A DNA stretch of 64,000 nucleotides from Variovorax sp. YR216 (GTDB taxonomy: Bacteria; Pseudomonadota; Gammaproteobacteria; Burkholderiales; Burkholderiaceae_C). The stretch's first letter is position 1, and the number at the start of each line of letters is the position of its first letter. The stretch covers positions 1-64,000 of the forward strand of contig NZ_FNRO01000027.1 in NCBI RefSeq assembly GCF_900107745.1. Direction: 5' to 3'. Below the pieces are notes generated by a model. The model was not told where the DNA came from. It was given only the letters and a program-made list of their open reading frames with translations, and did not search any database. The translations under genes and the position numbers were made by a program. This document shows, in pieces, positions 10,205 to 63,222 of the stretch.

Positions 10205-10311
10205 GGGGCGTCGGGCTCCTGCGGTAGGGTGGTGTACGCGCCGGCGGCGCATACGGCGTGGAGTCTAGCGGCGTACGGAATCGGCGTGGCAAGATCGCCG
10301 CCCCGCCCGGA

Positions 10312-10338: not shown

Positions 10339-10348
10339 TACGCGAGAT

Positions 10349-11227
10349 ATGGACGATTCAACCCGCACTTTCGACCAGCTCCGCCCCCGCCTGGAGGGCA
10401 TCGCCTACCGCATGCTCGGCTCGATGGCCGAGGCCGAGGAGGTGGTCCAGGACGTCTGGCTGCGCTGGCACGAGACCGACCCGGCGACGCTGGACAGCGC
10501 CGAGGCCTGGCTGGTCACGATCGCCACGCGCCTGTCGATCGACCGGCTTCGCAGCGCCAAGGTGCGCCGCGAGCACTACGTCGGGATCTGGCTGCCCGAA
10601 CCGATCCTGACCGATTCGCCGCCGACCCCCGACCAGATGCTGGAGCGGGCCGACGAGGTTTCCACCGCCTTCCTGATGCTGCTGGAGCGCCTGTCGCCGG
10701 AGGCGCGCGCCGCCTTCCTGCTGCGGGAGGTGTTCGATGCCGACTATCCGCAGGTGTCCGAGATGATCGGAAAGAGCGAAGCCGCCTGCCGGCAGCTCGT
10801 GCATCGTGCGAAGGCGCAGTTGCGCGAGGAGCGCCCGCGCTTCGAGGTCTCGCCCGACGCGCACCGACGGCTCCTCGGCGACTTCGCGGCGGCGATCACC
10901 GACGGCAACCTTGCGGCGCTCAAGTCGATGCTGTCCGAACGGGCCGAGCTGATCGGCGACGGCGGTGGCAAGGTGCCGAGCTTCGGCAAGCCGCTGGTGG
11001 GCAGCCAGCGCATCGCGCAGCTGTACTTTGCGAGCGCGCGCCGCCACGGTGCGGCGCAGCGCGTCGAAATCGCGAACCTCAACGGGCAGTGGGGCCTGCT
11101 GCGCTTCATCGATGGCGCGCTCGAATCGGCGCAGTCGTACGAGACGGACGGGCAGCGCATCGTGCGCATCCATGTGCAGCGCAATCCGGACAAGCTGGCG
11201 CGGCTTGCGGCGATGCTCGGGTATTGA
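10349..11227 (+). CDS. sigJ: ECF41-family RNA polymerase sigma factor with SnoaL-like C-terminal domain
   Basis: 292 aa. Sigma region 2 at about residues 10-75 (RPRLEGIAYRMLGSMAEAEEVVQDVWLRW), the linker with YVGIWLPEPI, region 4 at about 110-160 (LSPEARAAFLLREVFDADYPQVSEMIGKSEAACRQLVHRAK) and a C-terminal extension of about 110 aa with a SnoaL-like fold. DGGGKVPSFGKP and NPDKL in the extension are hallmarks of ECF41, where the extension acts as a built-in regulator in place of an anti-sigma factor. No anti-sigma gene is present. The neighbouring CMD-type gene is the usual ECF41 partner. The start follows the 10312-10338 promoter. Confidence 0.92.
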   Translation: MDDSTRTFDQLRPRLEGIAYRMLGSMAEAEEVVQDVWLRWHETDPATLDSAEAWLVTIATRLSIDRLRSAKVRREHYVGIWLPEPILTDSPPTPDQMLERADEVSTAFLMLLERLSPEARAAFLLREVFDADYPQVSEMIGKSEAACRQLVHRAKAQLREERPRFEVSPDAHRRLLGDFAAAITDGNLAALKSMLSERAELIGDGGGKVPSFGKPLVGSQRIAQLYFASARRHGAAQRVEIANLNGQWGLLRFIDGALESAQSYETDGQRIVRIHVQRNPDKLARLAAMLGY

Positions 11228-11239
11228 TTGCGCGGCGCG

Positions 11240-11266
11240 TGTCACAACCGCACGGGGTCGAACGTC
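11240..11266 (+). promoter_or_regulatory. ECF41-type promoter for the CMD-family gene
   Basis: TGTCACA at 11240-11246 and CGTC at 11263-11266 with a 16-base spacer, identical in layout to the promoter of the sigma gene. The ATG of the target is at 11313, leaving a leader of about 40 bases. It indicates separate, sigma-dependent transcription of the downstream gene. Confidence 0.82.
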
Positions 11267-11312
11267 TTCCGGATATGGCGCACACGGTGTGCGCCTCAAA
11301 CCCGGAGAAACC

Positions 11313-11792
11313 ATGACCCAACGCATCAACTACATCCAGCGTTCGCCCGAGCTGTTCAAGAAGTTCGTCGAGTTCAGCAACGCGCTGAAGGAAAGCGGGA
11401 TCGACCGCGCCATCCACGACCTCGTCAACATCCGGGCCTCGCAGATGAATGGTTGCGGCTTCTGCCTCGACATGCATGTGAAGGAGGCGAAGATCCACGG
11501 CGAGCGCGAGCTGCGACTCCACCATGTGGCGATCTGGCACGAGTCCCCGCTCTTCAGCGCGAAGGAACGCGCCGCGCTGGCCTGGACAGAGGCGCTCACC
11601 CATCTGCCGCCGCACGGCGTGTCCGACGAACTCTTCGAAAGTGCGCGCACACAGTTCTCCGAGAAGGAACTGTCGGACCTCACGTTCCTGGTCATGGCGA
11701 TCAACGCCTGGAACCGCGCCAACGCCGCGTTCAAGACCCCGCCCGGATCGGCGGACAAGGCATACGGGCTCGAGAAGGCCGATCTGAGCTGA
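11313..11792 (+). CDS. Carboxymuconolactone decarboxylase (CMD)/AhpD-like protein, ECF41 target
   Basis: 159 aa. The AhpD-like core contains the redox motif CGFC in NGCGFCLDMH (about residues 47-56), preceded by HDLVNIRASQ, with the later LTFLVMAINAWNR helix. AhpD-type members use the two Cys and a nearby His as a peroxidase or thiol-reducing site. CMD-family genes are the usual regulon partners of ECF41 sigma factors, which supports a stress-linked redox role over gamma-carboxymuconolactone decarboxylation. Start chosen at GGAGAAACC-ATG, downstream of the ECF41 promoter. Confidence 0.88.
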   Translation: MTQRINYIQRSPELFKKFVEFSNALKESGIDRAIHDLVNIRASQMNGCGFCLDMHVKEAKIHGERELRLHHVAIWHESPLFSAKERAALAWTEALTHLPPHGVSDELFESARTQFSEKELSDLTFLVMAINAWNRANAAFKTPPGSADKAYGLEKADLS

Positions 11793-11942
11793 GGCTGCGG
11801 CGCGGCAACAAGCGCTTACACGGCGTCGCGGCCGCGGCATGCCAACCCCGTGTCAATTTGATCATCGTCACGGAAGTTGCGTTGACATCAGCGTCTTCGC
11901 GACACACGATGTCTCCTCCTGATGCGCTGGAGGACTCTCCCG

Positions 11943-12884
11943 ATGGAGAACAAGCATGAGAAGTACCAACGCCTGATTGCAGCCTGCCGGGCGTTCGATC
12001 CGATTCCGTGCGCGGTGGTGCACCCCTGCGACGAGAGCTCGCTCAGGGGCGCGCTGGAGGCGGCGGAAGAAAACCTGATCGCCCCGATCCTGGTCGGGCC
12101 GGAGCAGCGCATCCGGGCGGTGGCCGCCGATTGCGACCTGGACATCTCCGGCCTCTCGATCGTCGACACGCCGCACAGCGAAGCTTCGGCCGAAGCGGCG
12201 GTGCGCCTCGCGCGCGAAGGCAAGGTGGAGGCGCTCATGAAGGGCAGCCTGCACACCGACGAGCTGATGGCCGCGGTGGTCAAGCGTGAGACGGGCCTGC
12301 GGACCGGGCGGCGCGTCAGTCACTGTTTCGTCATGGACGTGCCGGCGCTGCATCAGCCGCTCATCATCACCGACGCGGCGGTCAACATCTTTCCGACGCT
12401 GCAGGACAAGGTCCACATCATCCAGAACGCGATCGACCTGGCCCATGCGCTCGGAAATGGTGCACCCAAGGTGGCGATCCTCTCGGCGATGGAGACGGTG
12501 AACCCCAACGTGCCCACCACGGTCGAGGCCGGCGCGCTGTGCAAGATGGCCGATCGTGGGCAGATCACCGGCGGCATCCTCGACGGGCCGCTCGCGCTGG
12601 ACAACGCCATCGACCTCAACGCGGCGAAGATCAAGAAGATCGCCTCGCCGGTGGCGGGACAAGCGGACATCCTCATCGTGCCCGACCTCGAAGCGGGCAA
12701 CATGCTCGCCAAGAGCCTGACGTTCATGGCCGGTGCAGATGCGGCGGGTATCGTGCTGGGGGCGCGCGTGCCGATCATCCTCACGAGCCGCGCAGACTCG
12801 CTGATCGCGCGGCTCGCCTCGTGCGCCGTAGCCAGTCTGGTCGCACGCGCACGACGCGAACAGCCGCCGAAAGTGGTCGCATGA
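11943..12884 (+). CDS. pta: Phosphate acetyltransferase (phosphate acetyl/butyryl transferase family)
   Basis: 313 aa, matching the short, single-domain PTA/PTB catalytic unit rather than the long Pta with a DRTGG domain. Family features: an N-terminal CAVVHPCDESSLRGALEAA segment, LMKGSLHTDELM, SHCFVMDVP, VAILSAMETVNP and the C-terminal PDLEAGNMLAKSLTFM. It converts acyl-CoA plus phosphate to acyl phosphate, which the overlapping acetate kinase gene product would use to make ATP. Start at 11943 fits GGAGGA ten bases upstream. Stop overlaps the ackA start as ATGA, implying coupled translation. Acetyl versus butyryl preference is not readable here. Confidence 0.9.
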   Translation: MENKHEKYQRLIAACRAFDPIPCAVVHPCDESSLRGALEAAEENLIAPILVGPEQRIRAVAADCDLDISGLSIVDTPHSEASAEAAVRLAREGKVEALMKGSLHTDELMAAVVKRETGLRTGRRVSHCFVMDVPALHQPLIITDAAVNIFPTLQDKVHIIQNAIDLAHALGNGAPKVAILSAMETVNPNVPTTVEAGALCKMADRGQITGGILDGPLALDNAIDLNAAKIKKIASPVAGQADILIVPDLEAGNMLAKSLTFMAGADAAGIVLGARVPIILTSRADSLIARLASCAVASLVARARREQPPKVVA

Positions 12885-41785: not shown

Positions 41786-43489
41786 TTAGCCCTCCGAGCG
41801 AGGCATCAGCCGCGCATCCGGCACGACGCGGACACGTACCGCCTCGTCACGACCGCGCAGGTGGGCATCGAGCGGCGCCAGTAGGCCGGCCGAGATCCCG
41901 GCGTGCCGGAACACCGCATCCGAGACGATGGCCTCGCAGCCGACGTCGCGGGTCAACTGCTGAAGCCTGGCGGCCACGTTCAATGGATCCCCCAAGGCGG
42001 TGAATGTCACGTGCTCGCGAAAGCCGATCTCGCCCATGACGGCGCGGCCACAATGCACGCCGATGCCGAAGCGGATGGGCTGGCGCAACTGGGGTTCGAT
42101 CGCATCGTTCAGCGCCGCGATGTTCGTGGCGATCCGCGGCACCGCGTCGAGCGCCTGGCGGCATGCGATGGCGGGCTCGGTATCCAGGCCGAATATGGCG
42201 AGGACCCCGTCGCCCAGGAACTGGTTCGGCAACCCGCCTTCCCGCACGATCGCAGCGCAGGTCGCAGCCAGGAAGCGACTGACGATGAACAGGCTGTCGA
42301 ACGGCAATTGCTCTGCTGCGAGCCGCGTGGAGTCACGCATGTCCACGAACATGAACGCAGCGAATCGCTCCTTCGGCATGACGCCCCATCGCCGACCCGG
42401 CTCGAAGTTCACGTTGGTCGACGTCGGCACGAGTGGCCAAACCGAAAGATCCGCCTTCGGACGCAGCTGGCATGCGAGACGCACGAAGCGTGGGTCCGCG
42501 TCGAGTCGTGCCAGCACGCGTCGTTCCGCCTCTCGCGGCGCCGGCAGCTTCGCGTCGCCGACCACACGCACCCGGCACAACGAGCACCGGGCACGGCCGC
42601 CGCAGGCGCTTGCGTGGGGAATGCGGGCCATCCTGCTTGCCTCCAGCACCGAGAACCCCAGGGGCACGTGTACCTCGCGCCCATCCGGATAGCGCACGCA
42701 GACTCGGCCTCTCTTGCGCTCCCACAGCGAGCGCGCACCTCGCGCCGAAAGCACGAGCAACAGCGCGCCACCGTCGAAGAGAAGGAAGTCATTGCGCAAG
42801 TCGACGAGCCAGCGATCTTGCGCTGCCGTCCCGATGACTGTCTGCGCGAGCGCATGGGCGCGCCAGCCCGGGTCTTGCGCCAGCGCCATCACCTCCCGGC
42901 CGCCTTGCAGGTAGCCCAGCAAGGCCAGCACCGGCACGAGCACTGCGAGGCTCGCCAACACACTGCGCCATGCGCCGAACCATGGCTTCAATCGCAACCA
43001 GAACCAGATGCCGTAGCACCCGTGCACCCAGGCCACCACGAGCAGCATCAGCTGCACCCTGCCGAACGACGGCTGGGCAATCCACAACGAGTACAGCAAC
43101 TGGGCATAGCCCTTGTCCAGGCCGAACGCGGCAAAGGCGATGCGCGTGTTGACGAGATGGTTGGCCAGCAGCGGCGGTATGCACAAGCCCAGCGTGAGCT
43201 GGGCGACTTCGCCTGGCGTCCAGTGCAGCGAACGGCGCTCATACAGCGCCCACAGGCCGAGGCAGAAATGGATCGCCAGTGCGCTGTACAGCAGGATCGT
43301 GCCGGGCCATCCCTGCCAGATGAACTTCTGCACCAGCAGGCCTCGTTCGAGCCATGCCAAGGAGGCATTGCCGAGCGAATGATTCAGCAGGTGCGTCCCG
43401 ATATAGACGAACAGCACGAGCCCGCTCGCCAGCCGAACGGAACGCGCTCCGGCCGGTCGCAGGGTGCGAAGACGTCTGAAACCAGGCAT
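41786..43489 (-). CDS. Class III cyclase with cytochrome b-like membrane anchor and 2Fe-2S domain
   Basis: 567 aa from ATG 43489. Residues 18-250 form about six membrane helices with His at 33, 37, 74, 111 and 156, resembling the diheme cytochrome b anchor of succinate dehydrogenase. A plant-type 2Fe-2S ferredoxin follows (ligands C296, C302, C305, C340), then a class III cyclase domain (about 375-545) with metal Asp383 and Asp427, Asn504 and Arg508. The purine-reading Lys position is Gln423; Asp501 is kept. Rhizobial CyaC has a comparable quinone-responsive diheme-b anchor. This protein probably reads the quinone or redox state at the membrane and makes a cyclic nucleotide. Confidence 0.85.
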   Translation of the reverse strand: MPGFRRLRTLRPAGARSVRLASGLVLFVYIGTHLLNHSLGNASLAWLERGLLVQKFIWQGWPGTILLYSALAIHFCLGLWALYERRSLHWTPGEVAQLTLGLCIPPLLANHLVNTRIAFAAFGLDKGYAQLLYSLWIAQPSFGRVQLMLLVVAWVHGCYGIWFWLRLKPWFGAWRSVLASLAVLVPVLALLGYLQGGREVMALAQDPGWRAHALAQTVIGTAAQDRWLVDLRNDFLLFDGGALLLVLSARGARSLWERKRGRVCVRYPDGREVHVPLGFSVLEASRMARIPHASACGGRARCSLCRVRVVGDAKLPAPREAERRVLARLDADPRFVRLACQLRPKADLSVWPLVPTSTNVNFEPGRRWGVMPKERFAAFMFVDMRDSTRLAAEQLPFDSLFIVSRFLAATCAAIVREGGLPNQFLGDGVLAIFGLDTEPAIACRQALDAVPRIATNIAALNDAIEPQLRQPIRFGIGVHCGRAVMGEIGFREHVTFTALGDPLNVAARLQQLTRDVGCEAIVSDAVFRHAGISAGLLAPLDAHLRGRDEAVRVRVVPDARLMPRSEG

Positions 43490-51078: not shown

Positions 51079-52404
51079 TTATTCAGAGTGCCATGCCGCT
51101 ACCGGCCCTCTCATCGATTCGATGATCATGTCGATCGTTTCCGCCCAGGCCTTCTCGACCTGCGCCGTGTACCTCTCATCGAGAATCCCACGTGCCGACT
51201 CGAGAAACGCTTGCCGAAAGGCCGGGTAGTACTCGGCCGCGACACCGTAGCCATCATGTCGCCGTCCGAGATCTCGCAGGCCGAGCGCCATGATCTCGGG
51301 GCGGCTCATCGCGTGCACGAGAAATTGCATCATGTGAGAGAGCATCTGGCCCTGGCTGTCCATGTCGCCACGGAAAAGTCCTTCCGCCGCAGGAGCCAGC
51401 GCGAACAAACGTCGATAAAGATCCTGCGTAAAGCGCTTCTGATGTTGCAGGAGAACGCCGATCGTCGACTGGACCAGCAAGACGGAGTCCGGCGCGTCAA
51501 AGCCGATGGCTTCCACGAGTTGGAACGCGCCGCGCCTACCCTTCAATACGGCTTGTGCTTTGCGCACCTTCACGGGCGCCTGCGGAACTTGATTGAACAG
51601 AACCTCCGACATCAGGAATCTCGTACCAAGCGTTTTGTTCGCATCCTGGATGCGGCTGGCGATGTTTATCGCATCACCGACTACCGTGAACTGCCGGTGA
51701 TCCGGATGCCCCATCATGCCAACGATGAGAGGGCCAAAATGCGCTCCGACGCCGATCTCGAGCGTCGTTCCGAATTCGTCGGACAACTCCGCATTGAGAT
51801 CGTTCAGCGCTGCGAGCATGCCCAAGCCGGCTCGAATCGTGTCGAGACAACTCTTCTCGGGCGGATCGCCGCCAACACCGAACAGCCCAACGATCTGGTC
51901 GCCGACATACTGATAGATGACACCGTTGTTGATCAGAATCGCGTCGCCGACCGCCTTGAAGAAACGATTGAGGATATGCACCACGTCGAAGGCGAGGTGC
52001 GCTTCGACCAAGGGCGTGAAGTCGCGGATGTCGCTGAACAGGATGGCGAGCGTTCGCTCCTGCGACGGCGCGACCGACGCTTCTTCCACCTGCAGGCACG
52101 ACACGTCCGAGTGGGTCCTGATCAGCCGTTCGAGGCTCACGTCCCCGCTGACGCTCGTCTGACACGCCAGGCGCGTGAACCCATCCCAGCGAAGCGCGCT
52201 GGCCACCTCGACCTCGCGCGGCGTGCGCGCCGAGACGTTCTGAATCCCGTCACAGATGCGGACGCGGCAAGTCGTGCAGCGCCCGTGTCCGCCGCATGCC
52301 CGAACGTGCGGGATTTTGTGCGCGATCGACACGTCGAGGATGGTCATGGTGGGATCGGCGACCGGCATCGCCCTGTCTTCGCCCACGTATACGATTGTCG
52401 TCAT
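51079..52404 (-). CDS. Ferredoxin - class III cyclase - globin fusion
   Basis: 441 aa, soluble. Residues 1-95: plant-type 2Fe-2S ferredoxin (ligands C37, C43, C46, C81). Residues 115-285: class III cyclase with metal Asp125 and Asp169, Asn247 and Arg251; the purine-reading Lys position is Gln165, Asp244 kept. Residues 305-435: globin domain with Tyr330 at the B10-like position (FTQDLYRRLF), LFRGDMDSQG, and proximal His383 in LGRRHDGYGV. It joins a redox centre, a heme gas sensor and a cyclic nucleotide output. Downstream of the split phosphotransferase genes on the same strand, 258 bases after them. No strong ribosome site at the ATG. Confidence 0.88.
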   Translation of the reverse strand: MTTIVYVGEDRAMPVADPTMTILDVSIAHKIPHVRACGGHGRCTTCRVRICDGIQNVSARTPREVEVASALRWDGFTRLACQTSVSGDVSLERLIRTHSDVSCLQVEEASVAPSQERTLAILFSDIRDFTPLVEAHLAFDVVHILNRFFKAVGDAILINNGVIYQYVGDQIVGLFGVGGDPPEKSCLDTIRAGLGMLAALNDLNAELSDEFGTTLEIGVGAHFGPLIVGMMGHPDHRQFTVVGDAINIASRIQDANKTLGTRFLMSEVLFNQVPQAPVKVRKAQAVLKGRRGAFQLVEAIGFDAPDSVLLVQSTIGVLLQHQKRFTQDLYRRLFALAPAAEGLFRGDMDSQGQMLSHMMQFLVHAMSRPEIMALGLRDLGRRHDGYGVAAEYYPAFRQAFLESARGILDERYTAQVEKAWAETIDMIIESMRGPVAAWHSE

Positions 52405-52662
52405 ATAAAGCTGGGCACTCGAACGATGCCAAGGCGATCACGAGGCCCGAGGGTCATGATGCTGATCGAGGGCGCGCAGAGCGCCCGACGCAAGTCTAGG
52501 CTCGACACCGCAGAAGTGGAAGATGGTGCAACCCTCACCGACCAGGCGAGCCACGGCGAGGCAATCGAGCACGCCTCCAGCCCGAACTACGCCAGCAACG
52601 TAGCTCACCAGAGCTGCCCGCTGAAGCGGGCGACAGCGCGCTGAGCGCGCACCTGCCTGGGC

Positions 52663-53919
52663 TCAGTCCTGTTCGGCCACGCGCAGCCTCTTCGCCAGCG
52701 CCTGCAAGAGCTTCCAGGCGATGGCACCGTTGCGTTCGATCAGCGGGCGGAACTCCCAGAAGGTCAGGCCGTAGCACACCAATTGGGTGGTGGCGACGAC
52801 GGTGGCCGAGCGCGGCCCGCCGTCGATCAACGCGATCTCGCCGAAATGGTCGCCCGGGCCCAGCGTGTTGATCGACACGCCCTTGCTCGACACCGCGGCC
52901 TCGCCCGATTCGATGATGAAGAACGCAGCCGCGCCCGAACCTTCGCGGATGACGGTCTCGCCCTGGGCGAAATGGCGCTGCTTCAGCAGCCGCGCAATCT
53001 GCTCGGTCTGGCGCCGGTCCAGGTCGACGAAGAAGCGCACACGCTGCAGAGCGCCCACCGGGTCGCGCGGCGGAGGGCTGGGCAATGTGGCCTCACTGCG
53101 CGACTGGCCGGTGGTCACGGCGCGGCATTGCAGCAGGTACAACGTGCCTTCCTGCATCGCCCATTCGATGTCGCGGCGCGGGCCGTAGGCCTTCTCGCAC
53201 TGCAGCGCCAGGCCGGCGAGCGACGCCAGCTGCGCATCGTCCAGGCACAACTGCGTCACCTGCGCCGCCGGCACCTGTTCTTCGAAGGTCCCGCCGTTGG
53301 GCAGCGAGCGCACGGCGATCCGCTTGCGTCCGGGCTTGCGTTCCAGCACCACGCCGGCGCGATCGAGGCGGAAGTGGTCGGGCACCACCAGGCCGGCAAC
53401 CACCGCTTCGCCCAGGCCCCAGCTGGCCTCGATCAGACGCTCGTCAGCGCCGGTGACCGGGTGTTCGGTGAACATGACACCGGCCACATCGGGACTGAGC
53501 AGCGTCTGCACCACCACGCCGACACTCGGCCTGGTGAACAGCCCCACCTTCTGGCGGTAGGTGATGGCCGAATCCGAATTGGCCGACCACCACACCTCGC
53601 GCACTGCGCCGGGCACATCGGCGGGCGTGTGCACATTGAGCACCGTCAGGTGCTGGCCCGCAAAGCTGGCTGCGGCGCCGTCTTCATCGACGGCCGAGGA
53701 GCGCACGGCGAACGGCGCCGGCAGCTCGGCAATTGCCGCTGCGAGCCTCTCGATGGCCTTCTCGTCGCCGCCGGCGACGGCCTCGACCAAGTCGCCCGAC
53801 AGCGCCACCCCTGGCGGCACCGCCAGGCCGTGATGCACGGCATTGCCGAGGCCCACCGCCTTGGAGCCGAAGAGCGCAGCGTCGCGCGCCTTCGCAAAAG
53901 GGACGACTTGCTGTTTCAC
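52663..53919 (-). CDS. PEP-synthase/PPDK-type ATP-binding domain fused to a cyclic nucleotide-binding domain
   Basis: 418 aa from a GTG overlapping the upstream stop by 4 bases. Residues 10-268 are a pyruvate/PEP-dikinase N-terminal ATP-binding domain: FGSKAVGLGNAV, VRSSAVDEDGAAASFAGQ, GVMFTEHPVTGADERLIEASWGLGE and DIEWAMQEGTLYLLQCRAV. Residues 295-410 form a CRP-type cNMP-binding domain with the phosphate cassette FGEIALIDGGPRSATV (Glu361, Arg370, Ser371 all present). No DNA-binding domain. The protein lacks the phosphohistidine swivel, which is on the upstream gene, so the two must assemble. ATP-driven phosphotransfer is probably gated by cAMP or cGMP. Confidence 0.88.
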   Translation of the reverse strand: MKQQVVPFAKARDAALFGSKAVGLGNAVHHGLAVPPGVALSGDLVEAVAGGDEKAIERLAAAIAELPAPFAVRSSAVDEDGAAASFAGQHLTVLNVHTPADVPGAVREVWWSANSDSAITYRQKVGLFTRPSVGVVVQTLLSPDVAGVMFTEHPVTGADERLIEASWGLGEAVVAGLVVPDHFRLDRAGVVLERKPGRKRIAVRSLPNGGTFEEQVPAAQVTQLCLDDAQLASLAGLALQCEKAYGPRRDIEWAMQEGTLYLLQCRAVTTGQSRSEATLPSPPPRDPVGALQRVRFFVDLDRRQTEQIARLLKQRHFAQGETVIREGSGAAAFFIIESGEAAVSSKGVSINTLGPGDHFGEIALIDGGPRSATVVATTQLVCYGLTFWEFRPLIERNGAIAWKLLQALAKRLRVAEQD

Positions 53920-55556
53920 CCAAGCACCGTGACCTCGCCGGCATCCCCGTCGACGCGCAGGCGCATGCCGTCGCTGATGCGTTCGGTGGCCTCGCGCGTG
54001 CCGACCACGCCGGGTATACCGTATTCGCGCGCGACGATCGCCGCATGCGACAGCAAGCCACCATTGTCGGTGACGATGCCGCCCAGCAGCGGCAGCAGGA
54101 TGTTGAAGGCCTCGGTCGTCGATTCGGTGACGAGCACGTCGCCCTGCTGGATGCGGCCGAATTCCGACGGGCCCGAGACGCGCCGCGCCGGGCCTTCATA
54201 GACCCCCTTGCTGGCGGCCAGCCCGTAGAGCATCCGGTCTTCGTTGGTGGCCTCGGAGCTGCCGAACAAATGGCCCAGCGCGATGAAGGTCGCGCGCATG
54301 AGGCGAGCCACAGGCGGCGGCAGCGCCGCCAGGTCCGGCGGCGGCGGGGGCGGCGGGCCGAGCAGCGGCGGCACGTCCTTGGCGGTGTGCGCCGCGCGAT
54401 AGGCGGCGCGCTGTGCCAGCTCCTCGGCCATGGGGCCACCACTGGCGGCAACCAGTGCGCACATCTCGTCGATGCCGGCGTCCAGCATGTGCAGTGGGGT
54501 GGCGATGCGGCCGCGCGCCGACACGCGCCGGCCGGCCGCCAGCGCCGCGCGCCGCATCAGGCCAGAGGCCCAGATGTCGCTGTAGATACCGCGCTCGTCG
54601 CGCAGCCGGTACATCAAGCGGGCCTCGCCCAGCAATTCATCGAACTGCGCCTGGTGCGCCACGGGCACGTGGGCACGCACCTCGGCGACGCGCACGTCGA
54701 GGTCCGACGCGACCGCGGCCTCGCCCGACAACGCGATACGAAGAGAGCGGAGCAGGGCGTCAGGCAGCTCCAGTGCCGTGGGCTCGGCGATGTCGAAGCC
54801 GTCGATCAGTCGGTGACCGACCAGGTCGAGATAGCCGCGCACCGCCGCGCCGGCATCGCCGCCGAGCGTGCGCAGACGTTCGAGCAGTTGCGCCGGGTCG
54901 GCGTCGCTGGCCAGCAGCGTGCGTGCCGCCGCGTCCGTGGCGAAGGCGCCCTTCAGGCGCGCCATCTCGTCGGATCCGCCGGACGAGACCTCGGCCGAAC
55001 CGCGCATCAGGCCCAGCAACTCCGACGGTGGCAACTCGGTCCAGGCGCCCGCATGGGCAAGGAAGTCGCCGACTGGCAGCACCGCGCCACCGGTAAAGCG
55101 CATGTGCTGCGTGATCATCGCCGCGTGATGGTCGCGGCAGCGCCGCAGATAGGCCACCAGCTCGGCGTCGGACAGCGCATCCGCGTCGACAAGCTGCAGC
55201 TCGCGGTGCATCGCGATTGCCGCGGGCTTGCACTGGTCGTCCCATTCTCGCAGCTGCTCGCGCCAGAGCTTTTGCGCATAGACCTGCTCGGCGCGCTGAA
55301 AGCGTTCGGGCAGCTCGGATTCCGGTGCCGGTACCACCTGGTTGTAGCCGAAGCCCTGCACGTAGGCCATCTGCAGGCCGTCGATGAGCATGCCGTAGTA
55401 GCGCGCAAAGGCTTGCGTGCCGGCGCGGAACGGGCCTGGGTGCATCTCCTGGAAGTAGCGCGTCATTGGCCGAGGGAAGTGCACGCTGTCCTGTTTCCAC
55501 GGTCCGGGCCCGGGCGGCTCGATGGGCAGTTTGATGCTCAGGTCGTGTACTGTCAT
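53916..55556 (-). CDS. PEP-utilising enzyme: substrate domain plus phosphohistidine swivel domain
   Basis: 546 aa from ATG 55556, with AAGGAG upstream. The first 400 residues are helical and resemble the middle substrate-binding region of rifampin phosphotransferase (HFPRPMTRYFQEMHPGPF near the start). A Pro-rich hinge (GPPPPPPP) leads to the swivel domain (about 455-546) with the catalytic His504 in GGLLSHAAIVAREYGIPGVVG. Together with the next gene it rebuilds the Rph/PEP-synthase order in two chains, here with swivel first in the operon. Substrate unknown: an antibiotic, a metabolite or PEP/pyruvate are options. Confidence 0.85.
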   Translation of the reverse strand: MTVHDLSIKLPIEPPGPGPWKQDSVHFPRPMTRYFQEMHPGPFRAGTQAFARYYGMLIDGLQMAYVQGFGYNQVVPAPESELPERFQRAEQVYAQKLWREQLREWDDQCKPAAIAMHRELQLVDADALSDAELVAYLRRCRDHHAAMITQHMRFTGGAVLPVGDFLAHAGAWTELPPSELLGLMRGSAEVSSGGSDEMARLKGAFATDAAARTLLASDADPAQLLERLRTLGGDAGAAVRGYLDLVGHRLIDGFDIAEPTALELPDALLRSLRIALSGEAAVASDLDVRVAEVRAHVPVAHQAQFDELLGEARLMYRLRDERGIYSDIWASGLMRRAALAAGRRVSARGRIATPLHMLDAGIDEMCALVAASGGPMAEELAQRAAYRAAHTAKDVPPLLGPPPPPPPDLAALPPPVARLMRATFIALGHLFGSSEATNEDRMLYGLAASKGVYEGPARRVSGPSEFGRIQQGDVLVTESTTEAFNILLPLLGGIVTDNGGLLSHAAIVAREYGIPGVVGTREATERISDGMRLRVDGDAGEVTVLG

Positions 55557-55801: not shown

Positions 55802-56089
55802 TCAGCAGCCCTCGACCGCTACCAGGTAGTCGGTGGCTGCTTGTTGGCGCATGGCCAGCAGTGGCGCGTACTCGGGCGAAGCGAACCAGTCACGGATGTG
55901 CTCCATGGAAGGGAATTCAATCACCACCAATCTGCCGGGCGTCCAGTCGCCCTCCAGTACTTCGAGGCTGCCACCACGCACTATGAAACGGCCGCCGAAC
56001 TTCTGGATGATGGGTAGGACCTGCCCCTTGTACCGGTCGTAGGTCTCGTGGTCGCGGATTTCGGTCTGAGCGATGAGGTAGGCAGTCAC
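55802..56089 (-). CDS. DUF1330 protein
   Basis: 95 aa, complete. Ferredoxin-like dimeric alpha/beta barrel pattern: AYLIAQTEIRDHETYDRYK, FGGRFIVRGGSLEVLEGDW, RLVVIEFPSMEHIRDWFASPEY. Matches the short cytosolic DUF1330 family, whose biochemical role is not settled. Stands alone between the phosphotransferase operon and an IS scrap. Confidence 0.88.
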   Translation of the reverse strand: MTAYLIAQTEIRDHETYDRYKGQVLPIIQKFGGRFIVRGGSLEVLEGDWTPGRLVVIEFPSMEHIRDWFASPEYAPLLAMRQQAATDYLVAVEGC

Positions 56090-56147
56090 GAAGTTCTCCT
56101 CGGGCTGCTGCCATCTTGCCGGACAACGGACGCGCGCTCCAGTGTCC

Positions 56148-56204
56148 GATGTGTGCCGCCAGATCGGCGTGTCCGAAGCGACCTACTACACGTGGAAGAA
56201 GAAG
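56148..56204 (+). pseudogene. IS3-family OrfA HTH fragment
   Basis: 19 residues read DVCRQIGVSEATYYTWKKK, the recognition helix of an IS3-group OrfA transposase (IS2/IS911 style). Sequence on both sides no longer fits. A scar of an insertion sequence between DUF1330 and the large cyclase gene. Confidence 0.6.
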
Positions 56205-56221
56205 CGGCGGCGGCCCTTGGC

Positions 56222-59200
56222 TCACCGCAGTTTGGAACCGGATGCCTTGATGGGCCTATAGTCGATCAACTGCGCCAGCGTAGACTCCGCTCTTGTCTTG
56301 TAGACCGTCGCACCCTGCTCCGAGGCGATGCGCACGGCGGTACGCAGCCAACCCTCGGCGAGCGCCGCGTTCACCGCCGAGTCCGCCAGCGCAAGCTCTG
56401 CACGCATCCGCCACAGCTCCGAAACATGGATGCCCACTTCCGGTGAAATCAGCGTGTCGAAGATGCGCGTGACGAGTGCCAACGCCTCCTTGCCGCGACC
56501 GGCCCGCGTCAGCGCTTCGACCATGCACAGATGCGGATACACGCCGAGGAAGCTGTGCCTGACTGCCGTGTCGTAGGTCGCTTCCATCATGACCAGTCCG
56601 CCGGCGATGTCCCCCTGCCGTACGCGCGCCAGGCCGAACATGAACTGCCCGAGCCCGTGCTGCAGCGGCAAGTCGTATTTCCTTGCCACCTGCATCTCGC
56701 GCTCAGCCATGTTCTGACAGGCATCGATGTCGCCGGCCAGTTGCATGGCGACGCTGCCGTTGCCGAGGGCGAATGCCAGGCTGAACGGGTGTTGCACCGA
56801 CTCCGCGAGCGCGAGCGCGGCGTCGAGGCTGGCGCTGGCATCCCGCGCCAAACCCGCGAGGCCCAGCCCCATGGCGGTGCAGCAATGTGCGCAGACACCC
56901 GGATCATGGCCGGCATACACCTGGGAAAGGTCGTGATGGCGCTGCGGGTCGTAGCGCAGAATGCCTTCGCGCGTCACCTCCAGCATCTTCCCGGTCTGGC
57001 CCGTGAAGTAGCAGATGCCCCAGCGGTGATGCAGGCTTTCCATCTGCAGGTCGTCGTCGCCCAGCTTGCGGCCGATCTCCAACAGTTCCTCGCCCAGCAT
57101 GCGCATATCGTCGAACTGGCGCGAGTTGGCCTTGGTGATGTACAGCCCCCATGTCGCCTGGAATAGTTGCCGTTCGGAGTTGGCCTGCTTGGCCAGCGCA
57201 TAGGCCTGCGCCAGCACCGCGGCCATGTCATGGCTCAGTGGCCCGGCCTGGATGTTGAAGGTCGCGCCCAGCTTGAGCTTCGCTTCGATCGTGCAGCGCG
57301 CACGGGTCGCGGCGTCGGTGATCTGCTCTGCTTGCGCGAGCGCGGCGTTCAAGTTGGCGATCGTCTCGGCATGGGCCGAGCGCCGCCCCGACTTTTCTGC
57401 GGCGAGCAGCCAATACGTGCACGATCGCTCTGGCTGCGCCGCGCGGTCGAAATGATAGGCAACCATCTCAGGCGCGCTGACGGCCGAGGTGTCCAACTGC
57501 GATGCCAGCAGTTCGGCAATTTTCAGGTGCAAGGCCTGGCGACGGCTGCGCGACAGGCTTTGGTACGCCGCCTCCTGCACCAGCGAATGGTTGAAGCTGT
57601 AGCCACCCTGTTGCGGGTCCTCGGTGGCGAATACGAGGCCTGCGCCGAGCAACCGGTCCAGGCCCTCGCGCAGCGTAGCCTCCTGCACGCCGGCAATGGC
57701 GGCCAGGAGCGGGTAGGAGAAATTGCGCCCGATCACGGAGGCCACCAGCGCAATGTCCTCGGCTTCGCCCAGACGATCCAGCCGGGACATCAGGGAGTCC
57801 TGCAGCGTCGAAGGCACGACAACGGCGTGCGCAGCCTGCATGTCGATCACCGCCTTGGTCAGTTCTTCGACATACAGCGGTACCCCGTCGCTGCGCTCCA
57901 CGATCTGCCGGACCAGCGCCTCGTCGATCGGCCAGGTGCCCGCGGCGCGGCGGGCCACCGCAGCACTTTGGTCGTACCCCAGCGGCTTGCACAAGATTGC
58001 AGTGGCGTTCATGTGCTCGCCCCAGGGCTTGCGGAATTCGGGCCGGTGGCTGACAAGGGCCAGCACCCTGCATGATCCGATGCGCGACAGCAGCCGTTCC
58101 ACCAGGATTTGCGTCGTGGGATCGCTCCAGTGCGCGTCCTCCAACAGCAGGAGCACCGGCGCTTCGTCAGGTGTGGCCAGCACGAAGTCTTCGAGGATGG
58201 CGAGTATTTCCAGGTTGCGCTGCGCGGTGGTCATCTCCATCGGCGACAGGCGGTCGGGTGTTGGAAGTTCGAGCAACTCTGCGATCAACAGGAGGTCCCG
58301 GCGCGACGTCCTGCCGATGCGCGGCAGCAGGGCTTCGAGCTTGCCCAGATTCTCTTCAGTCGCGCGCTCGGGCTGAATCGCAGCTTCATGCCGCAGCAAC
58401 TGGGTCAGCGGGTACAGCGCGCTGTTGCGGTGATAGGGAGAGCATTGGCAGCGCAACAGCCGATGAGGCGTACCGCGTACTCGCTCGGCGAGCGCCTCGA
58501 TCAACCGCGACTTGCCCATTCCGGCATCGCCGCCGAGCATCACGAGGTGGCCGCTGCCCTGAACCGCACGTTGCCATGAATCGAGAAGAAAGGCCTGTTC
58601 CCGCTCGCGCGCAACGATCGGCCCGGCAAGCCTGCCGCGCGACGCGGCGAACCGACTCTCGACGCTGCGTTCGCGCACCACCTTCCAGACCGGGACAGGC
58701 TTGTCAAAGCCCTTCAACGCGTGTTCACCGGCGGACACGTACTCGAAGAAATCGCCACTGAGTTGCCGCGTCATCGGACTCACCAGCACGCTACCGGGTG
58801 CGGCAAGCGCCTGCAGACGGGCTGCCAGATTCGGCGTGTCGCCGACCACTGTCTGTTCGCGAGTGTCACCGGCCGCGTGCCCGACGACCAGGCCGGTGGC
58901 GACGCCGACGCGGGCCTGAAGCGCCTGGCCATCGGGGCGCTGCAGACGAGCGACCGCCATCACCATATCGAGTGCCGATCGGATCGCGCGCTCAGTTGCC
59001 TGTTCCTGGGCATGCGGATAGCCGAAGTAAGCCAGTACGCCGTCCCCCAGGAATTGGGCGATGTGGCCGTCGAAACTCTCGATCACACGGGCGCAGGTAT
59101 CGCGATACCTGCCCAGCAACTGGTCGAGGTCCTCGGGGTCGAGTTGACTGGCGATCTCGGTCGAGCCCACCAGGTCCGTAAACACGACGGTGACCTGGCG

Positions 59201-59440
59201 GCGTTCGACCTGCTTGGCGGTCGGAGCAGGCGCAACGGGGCCTGCAGGCATGGTGGCGGTTTGCCGCAGCCTGGAGGCTGCGGCGAGGAGCTTGCGCCGG
59301 TGGCCGAGCGACAGCCCCAGCTTTTCCAGGTCCTGATCGGTCAGGTCCGGCACGACCGTCAAGTCGATGTCGTTGCTGACAAAGTCTCCGCAATACATCC
59401 CAAGGCCGAGGCCTTGGAGCCACGAGCTGATGTCTGCCAT
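56222..59440 (-). CDS. SAM domain - class III cyclase - STAND ATPase - TPR protein
   Basis: 1072 aa. Residues 1-62: SAM domain (WLQGLGLGMYCGDFVSNDI ... KLGLSLGHRRKLL). Residues 80-250: class III cyclase with metal Asp89 and Asp133, Asn204, Arg208; the Lys position is Gln129, Asp201 kept. From about 275: AAA/STAND NTPase with Walker A GGDAGMGKS (303-311) and Walker B LLLLEDAHWSDP (about 425-436). The rest (about 640-1060) is helical TPR-like. This matches the widespread cyclase-LuxR/MalT-like ATPase architecture, a large soluble signalling switch. GAGG precedes the ATG. Confidence 0.9.
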   Translation of the reverse strand: MADISSWLQGLGLGMYCGDFVSNDIDLTVVPDLTDQDLEKLGLSLGHRRKLLAAASRLRQTATMPAGPVAPAPTAKQVERRQVTVVFTDLVGSTEIASQLDPEDLDQLLGRYRDTCARVIESFDGHIAQFLGDGVLAYFGYPHAQEQATERAIRSALDMVMAVARLQRPDGQALQARVGVATGLVVGHAAGDTREQTVVGDTPNLAARLQALAAPGSVLVSPMTRQLSGDFFEYVSAGEHALKGFDKPVPVWKVVRERSVESRFAASRGRLAGPIVAREREQAFLLDSWQRAVQGSGHLVMLGGDAGMGKSRLIEALAERVRGTPHRLLRCQCSPYHRNSALYPLTQLLRHEAAIQPERATEENLGKLEALLPRIGRTSRRDLLLIAELLELPTPDRLSPMEMTTAQRNLEILAILEDFVLATPDEAPVLLLLEDAHWSDPTTQILVERLLSRIGSCRVLALVSHRPEFRKPWGEHMNATAILCKPLGYDQSAAVARRAAGTWPIDEALVRQIVERSDGVPLYVEELTKAVIDMQAAHAVVVPSTLQDSLMSRLDRLGEAEDIALVASVIGRNFSYPLLAAIAGVQEATLREGLDRLLGAGLVFATEDPQQGGYSFNHSLVQEAAYQSLSRSRRQALHLKIAELLASQLDTSAVSAPEMVAYHFDRAAQPERSCTYWLLAAEKSGRRSAHAETIANLNAALAQAEQITDAATRARCTIEAKLKLGATFNIQAGPLSHDMAAVLAQAYALAKQANSERQLFQATWGLYITKANSRQFDDMRMLGEELLEIGRKLGDDDLQMESLHHRWGICYFTGQTGKMLEVTREGILRYDPQRHHDLSQVYAGHDPGVCAHCCTAMGLGLAGLARDASASLDAALALAESVQHPFSLAFALGNGSVAMQLAGDIDACQNMAEREMQVARKYDLPLQHGLGQFMFGLARVRQGDIAGGLVMMEATYDTAVRHSFLGVYPHLCMVEALTRAGRGKEALALVTRIFDTLISPEVGIHVSELWRMRAELALADSAVNAALAEGWLRTAVRIASEQGATVYKTRAESTLAQLIDYRPIKASGSKLR

Positions 59441-59594: not shown

Positions 59595-60074
59595 CTAAAC
59601 CATCGAGACCCCTGATTTGAGGGGACGCATGACGAAGCTCGAGCGGCAGTCCTGCACGCTCGGATGTTTCAGGAGCGTATCCATGACGAAGCGGGTGTAG
59701 TGGTCCATGTCGGCGACCACCACCTTGAGCAGGAAGTCCATGTCACCGGTGAGAGAGACACATTCCACCACTTCGGGCCATGTTGCGACTTCGGCAGCGA
59801 AGTCATCCATGGGCGTTCTCTTGCTGCGCCCGCTGTGCTTTTCCAGCCTTACGTTGATGTAGGCGGTCAGGTTGAGCCCCACGCGGCGCGCACGAACCAG
59901 CGCGGCATAGCCGGCGATGACACCCGATTCTTCCATCCGCCTCACACGCCGAAGCGCTGAGGAGGCCGACAAGCCCACTTGGCCGCCGAGCTCATCGAAG
60001 GAAATCCGTCCCTGCGTCTGCAGGACGGCCAGTATGCGCCGATCAAGAGAATCAAGCTCGATGGATTCTTCCAT
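59595..60074 (-). CDS. Lrp/AsnC-family transcriptional regulator
   Basis: 159 aa from ATG 60074. HTH at residues 5-60 (LDSLDRRILAVLQTQGRISFDELGGQVGLSASSALRRVRRMEESGVI), then the RAM ligand-binding domain with WPEVVECVSLTGDMDFLLKVVVADMDHYTRFV. Divergent from hppD with 130 bases between the starts. It probably controls the aromatic operon in response to tyrosine, phenylalanine or homogentisate-pathway compounds; the ligand is inference. Confidence 0.9.
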   Translation of the reverse strand: MEESIELDSLDRRILAVLQTQGRISFDELGGQVGLSASSALRRVRRMEESGVIAGYAALVRARRVGLNLTAYINVRLEKHSGRSKRTPMDDFAAEVATWPEVVECVSLTGDMDFLLKVVVADMDHYTRFVMDTLLKHPSVQDCRSSFVMRPLKSGVSMV

Positions 60075-60203
60075 GAGGCCATCTTCGCATGATTCATGCG
60101 CATTTGACCGTTGGGCGCCGCTAAATTGCACGATAAATGCACCGGGAAATGTCTACAGTCTCTCCATCCCGAGCCAACGGCTGCTCATTTCTGGAGACGA
60201 TGT

Positions 60204-61310
60204 ATGACCGACCTGTTCGACAATCCCATGGGCCTGTGCGGCTTCGAGTTCGTGGAGTTCGCTTCGCCCACCCCCGGCGTGCTGGAGCCCCTGTTCGAGA
60301 AGCTGGGTTTCACGCTGGTCGCCAGGCACCGCTCCAAGAACGTGCTGTTGTATCGCCAGGGCGGTATCAACTTCATCATCAACAACGAACCGGGTCAGGC
60401 GGCTTACTTCTCTGCGGAGCACGGCCCTTCGGCGAGTGGGCTGGCTTTCCGTGTGCGTGATGCACACAAAGCCTATAAGAGGGCGCTCGAACTGGGCGCC
60501 CAACCCATCGACATTCCCACCGGACCGATGGAGCTTCGCCTGCCGGCGATCAAGGGCATTGGCGGCGCACCGCTCTATTTGATCGACCGCTTTGAAGACG
60601 GCAAGTCCATCTATGACATCGACTTCGAGTTCCTGCCGGGCGTGGACCGTCACCCGAAGGGCCATGGCTTCCAGGTCGTCGACCACCTCACGCACAACGT
60701 CTACCGCGGCCGCATGGCCTACTGGGCCGACTTCTACAGCAAGCTGTTCAACTTCCGCGAGATCCGCTACTTCGACATCAGCGGCGAGTACACGGGACTG
60801 ACCTCCAAGGCCATGACGGCGCCCGACGGGTTGATCCGGATCCCGCTGAACGAGGAGGCCAAGCAAGGCGGTGGCCAGATTGAGGAGTTCCTCATGCAGT
60901 TCAACGGCGAGGGCATCCAGCACATCGCGCTCTTGACCGACAACCTGCTCGACTCGATCGACCAGCTGCAGATGGCCGGCATCCCGCTGCTCACGGCGCC
61001 CAACGACATCTACTACGACAACCTGGAGAAGCGTCTTCCCGGCCACGGCCAGCCGTTGGGCGAGCTGCAGGCGCGCGGCATCCTGCTGGACGGCACGACC
61101 GAGGGCGGCAAGCCCCGCCTCTTGCTGCAGATCTTCTCGGAGCCCATGCTGGGCCCGGTGTTCTTCGAGTTCATCGAGCGCAAGGGCGACTATCGCGAGG
61201 GATTCGGCGAGGGCAACTTCAAGGCGCTGTTCGAATCGCTCGAGCGCGACCAGATCAACCGCGGCGTGCTGGCGGCCTCGGACAAGGCGGCGACCAAGGA
61301 GCCTGCATGA
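60204..61310 (+). CDS. hppD: 4-hydroxyphenylpyruvate dioxygenase
   Basis: 368 aa. Two vicinal-oxygen-chelate halves. Fe ligands are His near residue 161 (VVDHLTHNV), His near 240 (GEGIQHIAL) and Glu near 322 ([10 protein letters not shown]). The bacterial HPPD end [19 protein letters not shown] is intact. It converts 4-hydroxyphenylpyruvate to homogentisate. Starts the operon with phhB and phhA, so hydroxylation of phenylalanine and the next steps of tyrosine breakdown are joined; no aminotransferase is in the window. Confidence 0.95.
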
Positions 61311-61615
61311 AGCTCGGTGCCGGGGAGCTCGCGGCGCAGTTGTCGATGCTCGATGGCTGGACGCACGCAGCCGTTCGGGGCGGCACGCTCTCGAAGGAGT
61401 TCCGGTTCGAGGACTTCAATCAAGCTTTCGGCTTCATGACGCAGATGGCCCTGCATGCCGAACGGATGAACCACCACCCGGAGTGGTTCAACGTCTACAA
61501 CCGTGTGTCGGTGACGCTGACCACGCATGACGTCGATGGCATCTCGGCCAAGGACATCGAGATGGCCCGCTTGATGAATCGAATCTTTGCGACCAAGCCA
61601 GGCGCTCAGGCTTAG
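61307..61615 (+). CDS. phhB: Pterin-4-alpha-carbinolamine dehydratase
   Basis: 102 aa. Active-site pattern [18 protein letters not shown] (His, His-His-Pro-Glu-Trp) is complete, with [13 protein letters not shown] before it. Dehydrates the 4a-carbinolamine formed by phenylalanine hydroxylase. Its start overlaps the hppD stop by 4 bases, and phhA starts 9 bases later. Confidence 0.95.
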
Positions 61616-61624
61616 GAGTACACC

Positions 61625-62524
61625 ATGCTGCAGCAACTCAAGGAAACCGCCAAGCACGGTCTGGCGGCAGGGGAGAGCCACGCGCCCGCGCGGCCCGACT
61701 GGACGATCGACCAGGGCTGGTCGAACTACACGAGCGAAGAGCACGCCGTGTGGCGCACGTTGTTCGAGCGGCAGTCGAAGCTGTTGCCGGGACGCGCGTG
61801 CGACGAATTCATCCGCGGGATGAGGGACTTGCCGATCGGGCCCGAGCAGATTCCCGACTTCGAGCAGCTGTCCAAGGTCTTGAGGAAGCGCACAGGGTGG
61901 GAAGTGGTCGCTGTGCCGGGCCTGGTGCCCGACGATGTGTTCTTCGAGCATCTGGCCAATCGTCGTTTTCCCGCGGGCCATTTCATCCGCAAGCCGCATG
62001 AGCTGGATTACCTGGAAGAACCCGACGTCTTCCACGACGTCTTCGGCCATGTGCCGATGCTGATGAATCCGGTGATCGCAGACTACATCCAGGCCTACGG
62101 CGAAGGCGGCCTGCGCGCCAAGCGGCTAGGTGTCCTGGAGAAGCTGGCGCGGGTCTATTGGTACACGGTGGAGTTCGGGCTGGTCCAGCAACCCGACGGC
62201 CTGAGGATCTATGGCGCTGGCATTGCCTCGTCTGCGAGCGAGACCCGCTTCGCCGTCGAAGACGATTCGCCCAACCGCGTCCGCTTCAAGCTCGAGCGGG
62301 TGATGCAGACGCGCTACCGCATCGATGATTTCCAGGAGACCTACTTCGTGCTGGGCCATCTGGACGAACTGCTGGAACTGGCCCGGATCGACTTCGCTCC
62401 GCTCTACGAACGCTTGGCGGATGCGCCTGAAAACGAGGCGGGGACGGTGCTTTCCACCGACGCGGTGGTGACGCGGGGAACTGGTCGATACCACGCGGCC
62501 AAGCGCTCGGAGACGCGTGCATGA
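61625..62524 (+). CDS. phhA: Phenylalanine 4-monooxygenase
   Basis: 299 aa, the usual length of the bacterial, non-regulated enzyme. Non-haem Fe ligands are the two His in FHDVFGHVPM (about residues 139-144) and the Glu in YWYTVEFGL (about 183). The start has PDWTIDQGWSNYTSEEHAVWRTL. It hydroxylates phenylalanine to tyrosine with tetrahydropterin. Stop overlaps the SDR start by 4 bases. Confidence 0.95.
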   Translation: MLQQLKETAKHGLAAGESHAPARPDWTIDQGWSNYTSEEHAVWRTLFERQSKLLPGRACDEFIRGMRDLPIGPEQIPDFEQLSKVLRKRTGWEVVAVPGLVPDDVFFEHLANRRFPAGHFIRKPHELDYLEEPDVFHDVFGHVPMLMNPVIADYIQAYGEGGLRAKRLGVLEKLARVYWYTVEFGLVQQPDGLRIYGAGIASSASETRFAVEDDSPNRVRFKLERVMQTRYRIDDFQETYFVLGHLDELLELARIDFAPLYERLADAPENEAGTVLSTDAVVTRGTGRYHAAKRSETRA

Positions 62525-63222
62525 CCGGCGCTACTCAGACGGTCGCGATCACAGGCGCCACGGGTCACCTCGGGCGAGCCGTGGCAAAGGCCTTCCACGC
62601 GCAGGGTGCTCGATTGATCCTGCTGGACCGCCAGACGCCTCCGGCCGATTCGATCTCGGGCAATTCGGACCGCGTGCTATTCCTGGAGGTGGATCTGCTC
62701 GACCGTCAGAAGGTGTCGCAGGCCATCGCTCGCGCGTGCGACCAGTTCGGCGAGATCACAACCGTGTGTCACATCGCCGGGGGCTTCCGCATGGGCGAGG
62801 CCGTGCATGAAACGACCGAAGGAACGTGGGACTTTCTCATGGACCTGAATGCCCGCTCGTTCATCAACGTCGCGGCGGCCACGGTGCCGATCCTGTTGCG
62901 GCGCGGCGGCGGAGGAATCGTCACCGTGGGTGCGGGCGCCGCGGGTCGTGGCGCGGCCCGGATGGGTGCCTACAGCGCCTCGAAGAGTGCGCTCATCCGC
63001 CTGACCGAATCGATGTCGGCCGAGCTCAAGGACAAAGGCGTCCGGGTGAACTGCGTCCTGCCATCCATCATCGACACGCCCGACAACCGCAGCGCGATGC
63101 CTGACGCGGACCCGTCTTCATGGGTTGCACCCGCCGCATTGGCCGACGTGATCGCCTTCCTGGCCTCGGACGCGGCACGGGCGATTCATGGGGCGGCGAT
63201 TCCTGTGAACGGGATGGTCTGA
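62521..63222 (+). CDS. SDR-family reductase, quinonoid dihydropteridine reductase-like
   Basis: 233 aa. Cofactor loop TGATGHLG (residues 11-18), HIAGGF in place of NNAG, catalytic Tyr-x3-Lys in YSASK (about 151-155). The C-terminal LPSIIDTPDNRSAMPDADPSSW closely follows the animal dihydropteridine reductase signature (LP-TLDTP-NR--MP-AD-SSW). Last gene of the hppD-phhB-phhA operon, exactly where a pterin-recycling enzyme is needed. It probably regenerates tetrahydropterin with NAD(P)H; a general SDR is the alternative. Confidence 0.82.
   Translation: MTGATQTVAITGATGHLGRAVAKAFHAQGARLILLDRQTPPADSISGNSDRVLFLEVDLLDRQKVSQAIARACDQFGEITTVCHIAGGFRMGEAVHETTEGTWDFLMDLNARSFINVAAATVPILLRRGGGGIVTVGAGAAGRGAARMGAYSASKSALIRLTESMSAELKDKGVRVNCVLPSIIDTPDNRSAMPDADPSSWVAPAALADVIAFLASDAARAIHGAAIPVNGMV

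Follow-up and report, generated by a model that had tools for sequence, protein, structure and literature searches.

We analysed 64,000 nucleotides of Variovorax sp. YR216 (contig NZ_FNRO01000027.1, positions 1 to 64,000; this whole stretch is called the window), which come from a 7.37 Mb genome in 49 contigs. Two adjacent genes in it, P0003 and P0002, probably encode the two subunits of a small-molecule dikinase that is gated by a cyclic nucleotide. From alignments and structure models we put the probability of this reading at about 0.68, and we regard the gating itself as well supported but unproven. The gene that follows, P0001, encodes a fusion of ferredoxin, class III cyclase and globin. 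As a predicted sensor of gas and redox state, this cyclase could plausibly act upstream of the pair in this strain, but it is not a conserved partner. The alternatives that we weigh below are not all mutually exclusive, so their odds need not sum to one.

A predicted kinase pair with a cyclic-nucleotide-binding domain

P0003, P0002 and P0001 are consecutive on the minus strand, in that order. P0003 (53916-55556, 546 aa) has a substrate-binding part and a C-terminal swivel domain with a predicted phospho-acceptor, His504 (Pfam PEP-utilizers, E = 7.6e-22). P0002 (52663-53919, 418 aa) has an ATP-grasp domain (PPDK_N, 2.6e-61) followed by a C-terminal cyclic-nucleotide-binding (cNMP) domain at about residues 290-418 (cNMP_binding, 3.1e-19). 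P0001 (51079-52404, 441 aa) has a [2Fe-2S] ferredoxin domain, a class III cyclase domain and a C-terminal single-domain globin (Fer2 3e-8, Guanylate_cyc 1e-13, Globin 2e-8). P0003 starts with an ATG preceded by AAGGAG, a good ribosome-binding site, and P0002 starts with a GTG inside the P0003 stop codon, so that the two genes overlap by 4 bp. These coordinates and Pfam matches bear out the gene order and domain content of the initial annotation, and the residues that it named all stand at the numbers it gave: Cys37, Cys43, Cys46, Cys81, Asp125, Asp169 and His383 of P0001, Glu361, Arg370 and Ser371 of P0002, and His504 of P0003.

To see how the cNMP domain is distributed, we scanned genome contigs from 84,980 species with P0002 and obtained 61 loci. 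The domain is fused to the ATP-grasp part in one open frame in 34 of them (three of these, L131, L132 and L145, lack the start of P0002), and it forms a separate open frame directly after the ATP-grasp gene in six (L144 and L146-L150). The other 21 matched in the ATP-grasp part alone, at no more than 39% identity. By their record titles the fused loci come from Pseudomonadota, Acidobacteriota, Verrucomicrobiota, Chloroflexota and Actinomycetota. Most of these genomes are metagenome-assembled, a label not carried by those of V. ginsengisoli, Leekyejoonella antrihumi, Nocardioides islandensis, Taklimakanibacter lacteus and one Comamonadaceae strain. The swivel gene precedes the ATP-grasp gene in 37 of the 40 loci with a cNMP domain. 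Of the exceptions, two (L132 and L145) start right at the end of a contig, and the third, L131, is a truncated copy whose examined flank contains no swivel gene. Within Variovorax the pair of this type occurs in 3 of 100 genomes. None of the 329 matching plasmid records covered 80% of P0002, and in a tree of the swivel subunits the fused rows did not form one group (4 changes, with long branches).

In the six split loci the cNMP domain is a small protein with a new ATG, beginning MAGAPIELL or similar, which starts 10 bp past the ATP-grasp stop codon in five loci and about 19 bp past it in L149. A separate gene so close behind the enzyme is what we would expect of that enzyme's regulatory subunit. 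Because some lineages have them as one protein and others as closely spaced genes, the cNMP and ATP-grasp parts very likely act together.

The P0002 domain retains the phosphate-binding cassette of PF00027 with its Glu and Arg. We aligned the window with 31 other fused proteins that are 58-97% identical to it, leaving out partial rows, and found Phe359, Gly360, Glu361 and Arg370 invariant in all 32. One could still suppose that the domain has lost ligand binding and serves the dikinase for structure or dimerisation. Some cNMP-fold domains do bind no nucleotide, and Ser371 is not conserved, being A, T, L, M or I in some of the 32 rows. However, the four invariant residues hold down to 58% identity, and class III cyclases were found in every one of the 41 host genomes searched; we consider a purely structural role quite improbable. 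The proposal in the initial annotation that the cNMP domain belongs to the dikinase therefore stands, on the fusion across five phyla, the invariant Glu and Arg, and the separate adjacent gene of the split loci.

A few related arrangements were seen along the way. Eight of the 100 Variovorax genomes (L089-L096) carry a different two-chain dikinase pair, of 569 aa and about 291 aa, that is roughly 46% and 51% identical, with no cNMP domain seen. L121 has an extra free-standing cNMP-domain protein (10282-10707, 141 aa) about 1 kb downstream of its fused pair. In L116 a patatin-like protein with cNMP domains (3908-6142, minus strand) adjoins the pair on the opposite strand.

Kinship with two-component dikinases

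We built AlphaFold models from alignments of 32 rows for P0002 and 38 rows for P0003 and compared them with the PDB. The P0002 model has a mean predicted local distance difference test score (pLDDT) of 78 and a predicted template modelling score (pTM) of 0.57; the latter value leaves it unsure how its parts are arranged relative to each other. Its N-terminal half matches the structure of rifampin phosphotransferase, RPH (E = 8e-18, with 5fbs among the matches), and the crystal structure of HpeI, 9goj (E = 4e-17, 30% identity, template modelling (TM) score about 0.5). Its C-terminal half matches PKG, PKA and CRP-type domains. The P0003 model (pLDDT 81.5) matches RPH along most of the chain (TM 0.5-0.6, E = 3e-12), and its six PDB matches with E up to 0.001 are all RPH entries; with TM at 0.41-0.58 this is an agreement in fold and not in detail.

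The P0003 motif T496-DNGG-LLS-H504 fits T/SXXGGXXXH, and His504 is invariant in all 38 swivel-subunit rows. This is the motif given for HpeH in PMC12167813, which also describes HpeHI as two-component. According to PMC9618137, HpeHI activity requires both HpeH and HpeI, and its relatives are CreHI and phenylphosphate synthase. The pair has a separate RPH-like ATP-grasp subunit, a swivel partner with this motif and an RPH-like substrate-binding domain. In sequence and model it is similar to HpeHI, CreHI, PpsAB and other two-component dikinases of small molecules, and the split is of an already known kind. RPH, by comparison, is one chain, whereas two separate genes are present in all 37 of the 40 loci in which both are in view; scores of the pair against the RPH model NF041857 are 170 and 91 bits, with a cut-off of 999.

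The initial annotation had presented the split as part of a possible novelty, against the single chains of RPH and phosphoenolpyruvate (PEP) synthase. This framing has to be revised, because two-chain phosphohistidine dikinases are described in PMC9618137 and PMC12167813, and the split alone is accordingly nothing new. HpeHI, the hydroxyphenylethanone kinase of Rhodococcus rhodochrous GD02 (HpeI is 9GOJ), CreHI and AcvAB all keep the ATP-grasp chain separate from the chain with the swivel His and the substrate site, as P0002 and P0003 do. From the same sources, HpeH shares its His motif with P0003, the HpeH and HpeI chains (71.2 and 40.6 kDa) are longer than P0003 and the roughly 280-residue ATP-grasp portion of P0002, respectively, and the hpe cluster has carboxylase genes. 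The word "cyclic" is absent from the main text of PMC12167813. Phenylphosphate synthase (PpsABC of Thauera aromatica and Desulfatiglans anilini) is likewise a split dikinase. The third gene of D. anilini, pps-gamma (PMC6114531), has a parallel in the separate cNMP genes of the six split loci. RPH and PEP synthase contain the same ATP-grasp, substrate and swivel-His parts, but in a single chain without a cNMP domain, as described in PMC12167813. The protein acetyltransferase Pat (NF058543) also has a cNMP domain fused to an enzyme, although the enzyme is a different one; the cNMP part of P0002 scores 44.8 bits against this model, far under its cut-off, and aligns to the N-terminal end of the model. 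The third subunit of PpsABC has CBS domains and is not known to have a cNMP domain. We found no prior description of a PEP synthase, RPH or other PEP-utilizing enzyme with a cNMP domain in the literature searched, which covers subscription journals thinly, and the domain looks to be a new part of the system.

The kinship also allows a catabolic role for the pair, as an aryl kinase of the HpeHI type that its cNMP domain places under carbon-catabolite-type control, with gas and redox sensing playing no part. In addition to the homology with HpeHI, CreHI and PpsAB, there are genes for 4-hydroxyphenylpyruvate dioxygenase and phenylalanine hydroxylase close by in the window, and the same block lies beside the pair in another Variovorax genome, G273. 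Yet we have seen this block beside the pair only in Variovorax. We also surveyed 115 neighbour proteins of other loci, hand-picked from heuristic gene calls with the cyclases already found left out (Pfam, E up to 1e-5), and no family occurred in more than two of them, among the 25 of 154 families listed. We regard an aryl kinase of this sort as possible, at somewhat less than even odds.

The ferredoxin-cyclase-globin protein

The ferredoxin domain of P0001 has the four Cys ligands (C-X5-C-X2-C-Xn-C; Cys37, 43, 46 and 81). In alignments to 1wc0 and 2w01 the cyclase domain keeps Asp125 and Asp169, which we take to bind metal, and Asn247 and Arg251, which we take to be in the active site, and cyclase activity is likely. 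At the base-specifying sites P0001 has Gln165 and Thr240; the corresponding residues are Lys and Thr in 1wc0 and Glu and Gly in 2w01. Thr240 leans towards cyclic AMP (cAMP) as the product, which is nevertheless uncertain because Gln165 replaces the Lys of CyaC. The globin keeps Tyr330, Phe344, Gln351 and His383 in alignments to HGbI-type globins, presumably positions B10, CD1, E7 and F8.

In globin-coupled sensors, by definition, the sensor globin is N-terminal and is followed by an output domain. We rejected membership of this class, as the globin of P0001 is C-terminal and closest to HGbI- and flavohaemoglobin-type globins (3s1i, 3wfw, 1cqx). The Tyr, Phe, Gln and proximal-His positions of these are kept, but P0001 differs from them in that its globin is fused behind a cyclase and there is no FAD/NAD reductase domain. 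CyaC-type ferredoxin-cyclase proteins have the same order of Fer2 and class III cyclase and are about 30-39% identical over roughly residues 20-300; many of them are longer open frames of 540-690 aa, and no globin was seen in the loci inspected. The cyclase at about 41.8-42.7 kb of the window also matches the ferredoxin part of P0001, with 33% identity over residues 20-295.

We saw the full architecture in this genome and V. ginsengisoli (72% identity, 435 aa) alone, which makes 2 of 101 Variovorax genomes. There was no other full-length match in 200 genomes of the family, nor in 398 of the phylum at E up to 1e-42, and none of 538 matching plasmid records covered 80% of P0001; more diverged copies would be missed at these limits. 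Ferredoxin-cyclase matches without an aligned globin occur in 45 of the 398 phylum genomes, our own included. In two genomes of another genus in the same class (G662 and G1137; L179 and L180), globin genes that are 30-39% identical to the P0001 globin lie on both sides of the ferredoxin-cyclase gene; in their family, 2 of 147 genomes have a closely similar ferredoxin-cyclase (E up to 1e-40). At 11 ferredoxin-cyclase loci of a different family we found no globin gene in flanks of up to 1.5 kb. The literature described above, with its thin coverage of subscription journals, gave no prior description of a ferredoxin-cyclase-globin protein.

Cyclases beside the pair

Cyclase genes lie beside the pair more often than expected. 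We looked at 42 loci (the window, G273 and the 40 with a cNMP domain), and in seven of them an open frame for a cyclase is no more than 1.1 kb away from the pair, a limit that was set after the distances were seen: the window, with one on each side, and L111, L132, L146, L147, L148 and L150. In L146 the called start of the cyclase is 1,125 bp from the pair. From the genome-wide density, with short flanks allowed for, 0.19 such loci are expected, and the probability of four or more is 4e-5. At 3 kb the count is 8 of 42 with 0.45 expected, and the added locus (L124) has its cyclase on the opposite strand. In L121, L131 and L137 there is a cyclase more than 6 kb away. The host genomes have 2-62 class III cyclase matches each, as against two or more in 5 of 14 named control genomes.

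The adjacent cyclases differ. The window has the ferredoxin-globin type and a SAM-AAA type, and V. ginsengisoli has a TPR cyclase; a short cyclase beside the pair of an alphaproteobacterial locus is 43% identical to the latter. In L146, L147, L148 and L150 the pair has beside it a cyclase-AAA protein of about 1,200 aa, similar to P0004 of the window (described below), and a scan found zinc ribbons in that of L147. Fourteen related loci without a visible cNMP domain (L086-L099) had no cyclase in the flanks examined, a contrast too small to count statistically, and two of these are swivel-only fragments of one genome.

Several points weigh against the gated-dikinase reading and its link to P0001. 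In addition to the variable Ser371 and the choice of the 1.1 kb limit, 35 of the 42 loci have no cyclase within that distance in the flanks examined, the seven that do are about four independent arrangements, and without the window, which was the source of the observation, the count is 6 of 41. The cyclase comparison used the 14 named controls and not matched genomes that lack the pair. Adjacency in the window means less because the window is rich in cyclases, with 4 of the genome's 20 class III matches (5166-5681, 41951-42358, 51640-52062 and 58703-59203, minus strand). P0001 has Gln165 in place of the CyaC Lys, is unlinked to the pair in V. ginsengisoli and has no fused ortholog in G273. Finally, the neighbours of the pair give no consistent clue to a substrate.

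Conservation of the three-gene neighbourhood

The initial annotation proposed a closed circuit, in which redox state and gases tune the cyclase and its product gates the dikinase, and it named conservation of the three-gene neighbourhood in relatives beforehand as a test. That test failed. None of V. ginsengisoli, G273 and G609 has the neighbourhood, and no P0001 ortholog was found in the examined flanks of the 40 loci, so we rejected a conserved three-gene neighbourhood. In V. ginsengisoli the P0001 homolog is on a different contig from the pair, with neighbours that by eye are ArgC-like and amino-acid permease-like. The pair behaves as a self-contained two-gene unit. What survives of the circuit is that the cNMP domain is tied to the dikinase, that cyclases are enriched beside the pair and that in another genus globin genes adjoin a ferredoxin-cyclase gene; the linkage of the three genes is the part that did not hold.

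A dedicated module, in which P0001 senses redox state or gas and its product directly and specifically gates P0002 and P0003, is for this reason doubtful in our view. The genes are adjacent on the same strand with all key residues intact, and both Variovorax genomes with the fused cyclase-globin are among the three with the cNMP-type pair. But this co-occurrence rests on two close species, no relative seen conserves the linkage, and the V. ginsengisoli pair has the TPR cyclase beside it instead. There is also a gap of 258 bp between P0002 and P0001, so co-transcription of the two is not assured.

At the other extreme, the arrangement could be a chance association in a cyclase-rich and rearranged region. 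Besides the concentration of cyclases within 64 kb of a 7.37 Mb genome, in G273 a DDE transposase gene and a different breakpoint lie next to the pair. Chance alone would not readily account for the recurrence of cyclase adjacency elsewhere with different cyclases, at 7 of 42 loci where 0.19 are expected, and we hold chance to be possible, at somewhat less than even odds.

Neighbouring genes

On the other side of the pair, and missing from the initial annotation, is a second cyclase gene, P0004 (56222-59440, minus strand, 1072 aa), upstream of P0003 and P0002. Its product has a SAM domain, a class III cyclase and an AAA ATPase by Pfam, and it scores 466.6 bits against TIGR03903, under the cut-off of 705.75. 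P0004 could be a second candidate source of cyclic nucleotide beside the pair. Between P0004 and P0003 is a DUF1330 protein (55802-56089, minus strand, 95 aa; Pfam DUF1330, 8e-35).

At about 56130-56240 on the plus strand, between P0004 and the DUF1330 gene, there is a resemblance by eye to the helix-turn-helix start of an IS3-type transposase, which is a candidate only. Positions 59595-63222 hold genes for an Lrp/AsnC regulator, 4-hydroxyphenylpyruvate dioxygenase, phenylalanine 4-monooxygenase and a short-chain dehydrogenase/reductase, and this aromatic block adjoins the pair inverted in G273 (locus L084). Immediately upstream of the pair, the same locus has a gene for a DDE_3 transposase (10988-12073), a hint of mobility. 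Rfam and tRNA scans gave no matches, and a promoter and terminator scan gave no excess over shuffled sequence.

Proposed mechanism and significance

We propose that the ATP-grasp domain of P0002 would bind ATP and pass a phosphoryl group to His504 on the swivel domain of P0003, which would then turn to the RPH-like pocket and phosphorylate a small, probably hydroxylated (phenolic) compound. The cNMP domain of P0002 would be a built-in regulatory subunit, with cAMP, or less likely cyclic GMP (cGMP), bound at Glu361 and Arg370. The bound nucleotide would move the C-terminal helix of P0002, and our guess at the sign of the regulation is that this lets the ATP-grasp lobes close or the swivel dock. 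The messenger could come from any class III cyclase in the cell. P0001 would couple redox state and O2, NO or CO to the messenger level, because it carries a [2Fe-2S] ferredoxin domain and a globin.

A broader version is speculative and, we think, rather unlikely as a whole. In at least five phyla, cAMP or cGMP bound to a regulatory domain or subunit would gate a dikinase that phosphorylates a small metabolite by way of a phosphohistidine relay, and this metabolite might itself be a signal, an antibiotic or a toxic phenol; in this strain P0001 would add a response to O2, NO and redox state, which makes a gas-to-metabolite circuit without transcription.

Bacterial cyclic nucleotides are known mainly for their action on transcription factors. 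If the gating is true, this picture would broaden to take in a small-molecule phosphotransferase that they control directly and allosterically in several phyla, and the little-explored two-component dikinases would gain a regulatory logic. The separate regulatory gene of the six split loci makes the gating directly testable with three purified proteins. With its fusion here and the adjacency of its parts elsewhere, the ferredoxin-cyclase-globin protein is a candidate redox- and gas-responsive cyclase that should be tractable to study.

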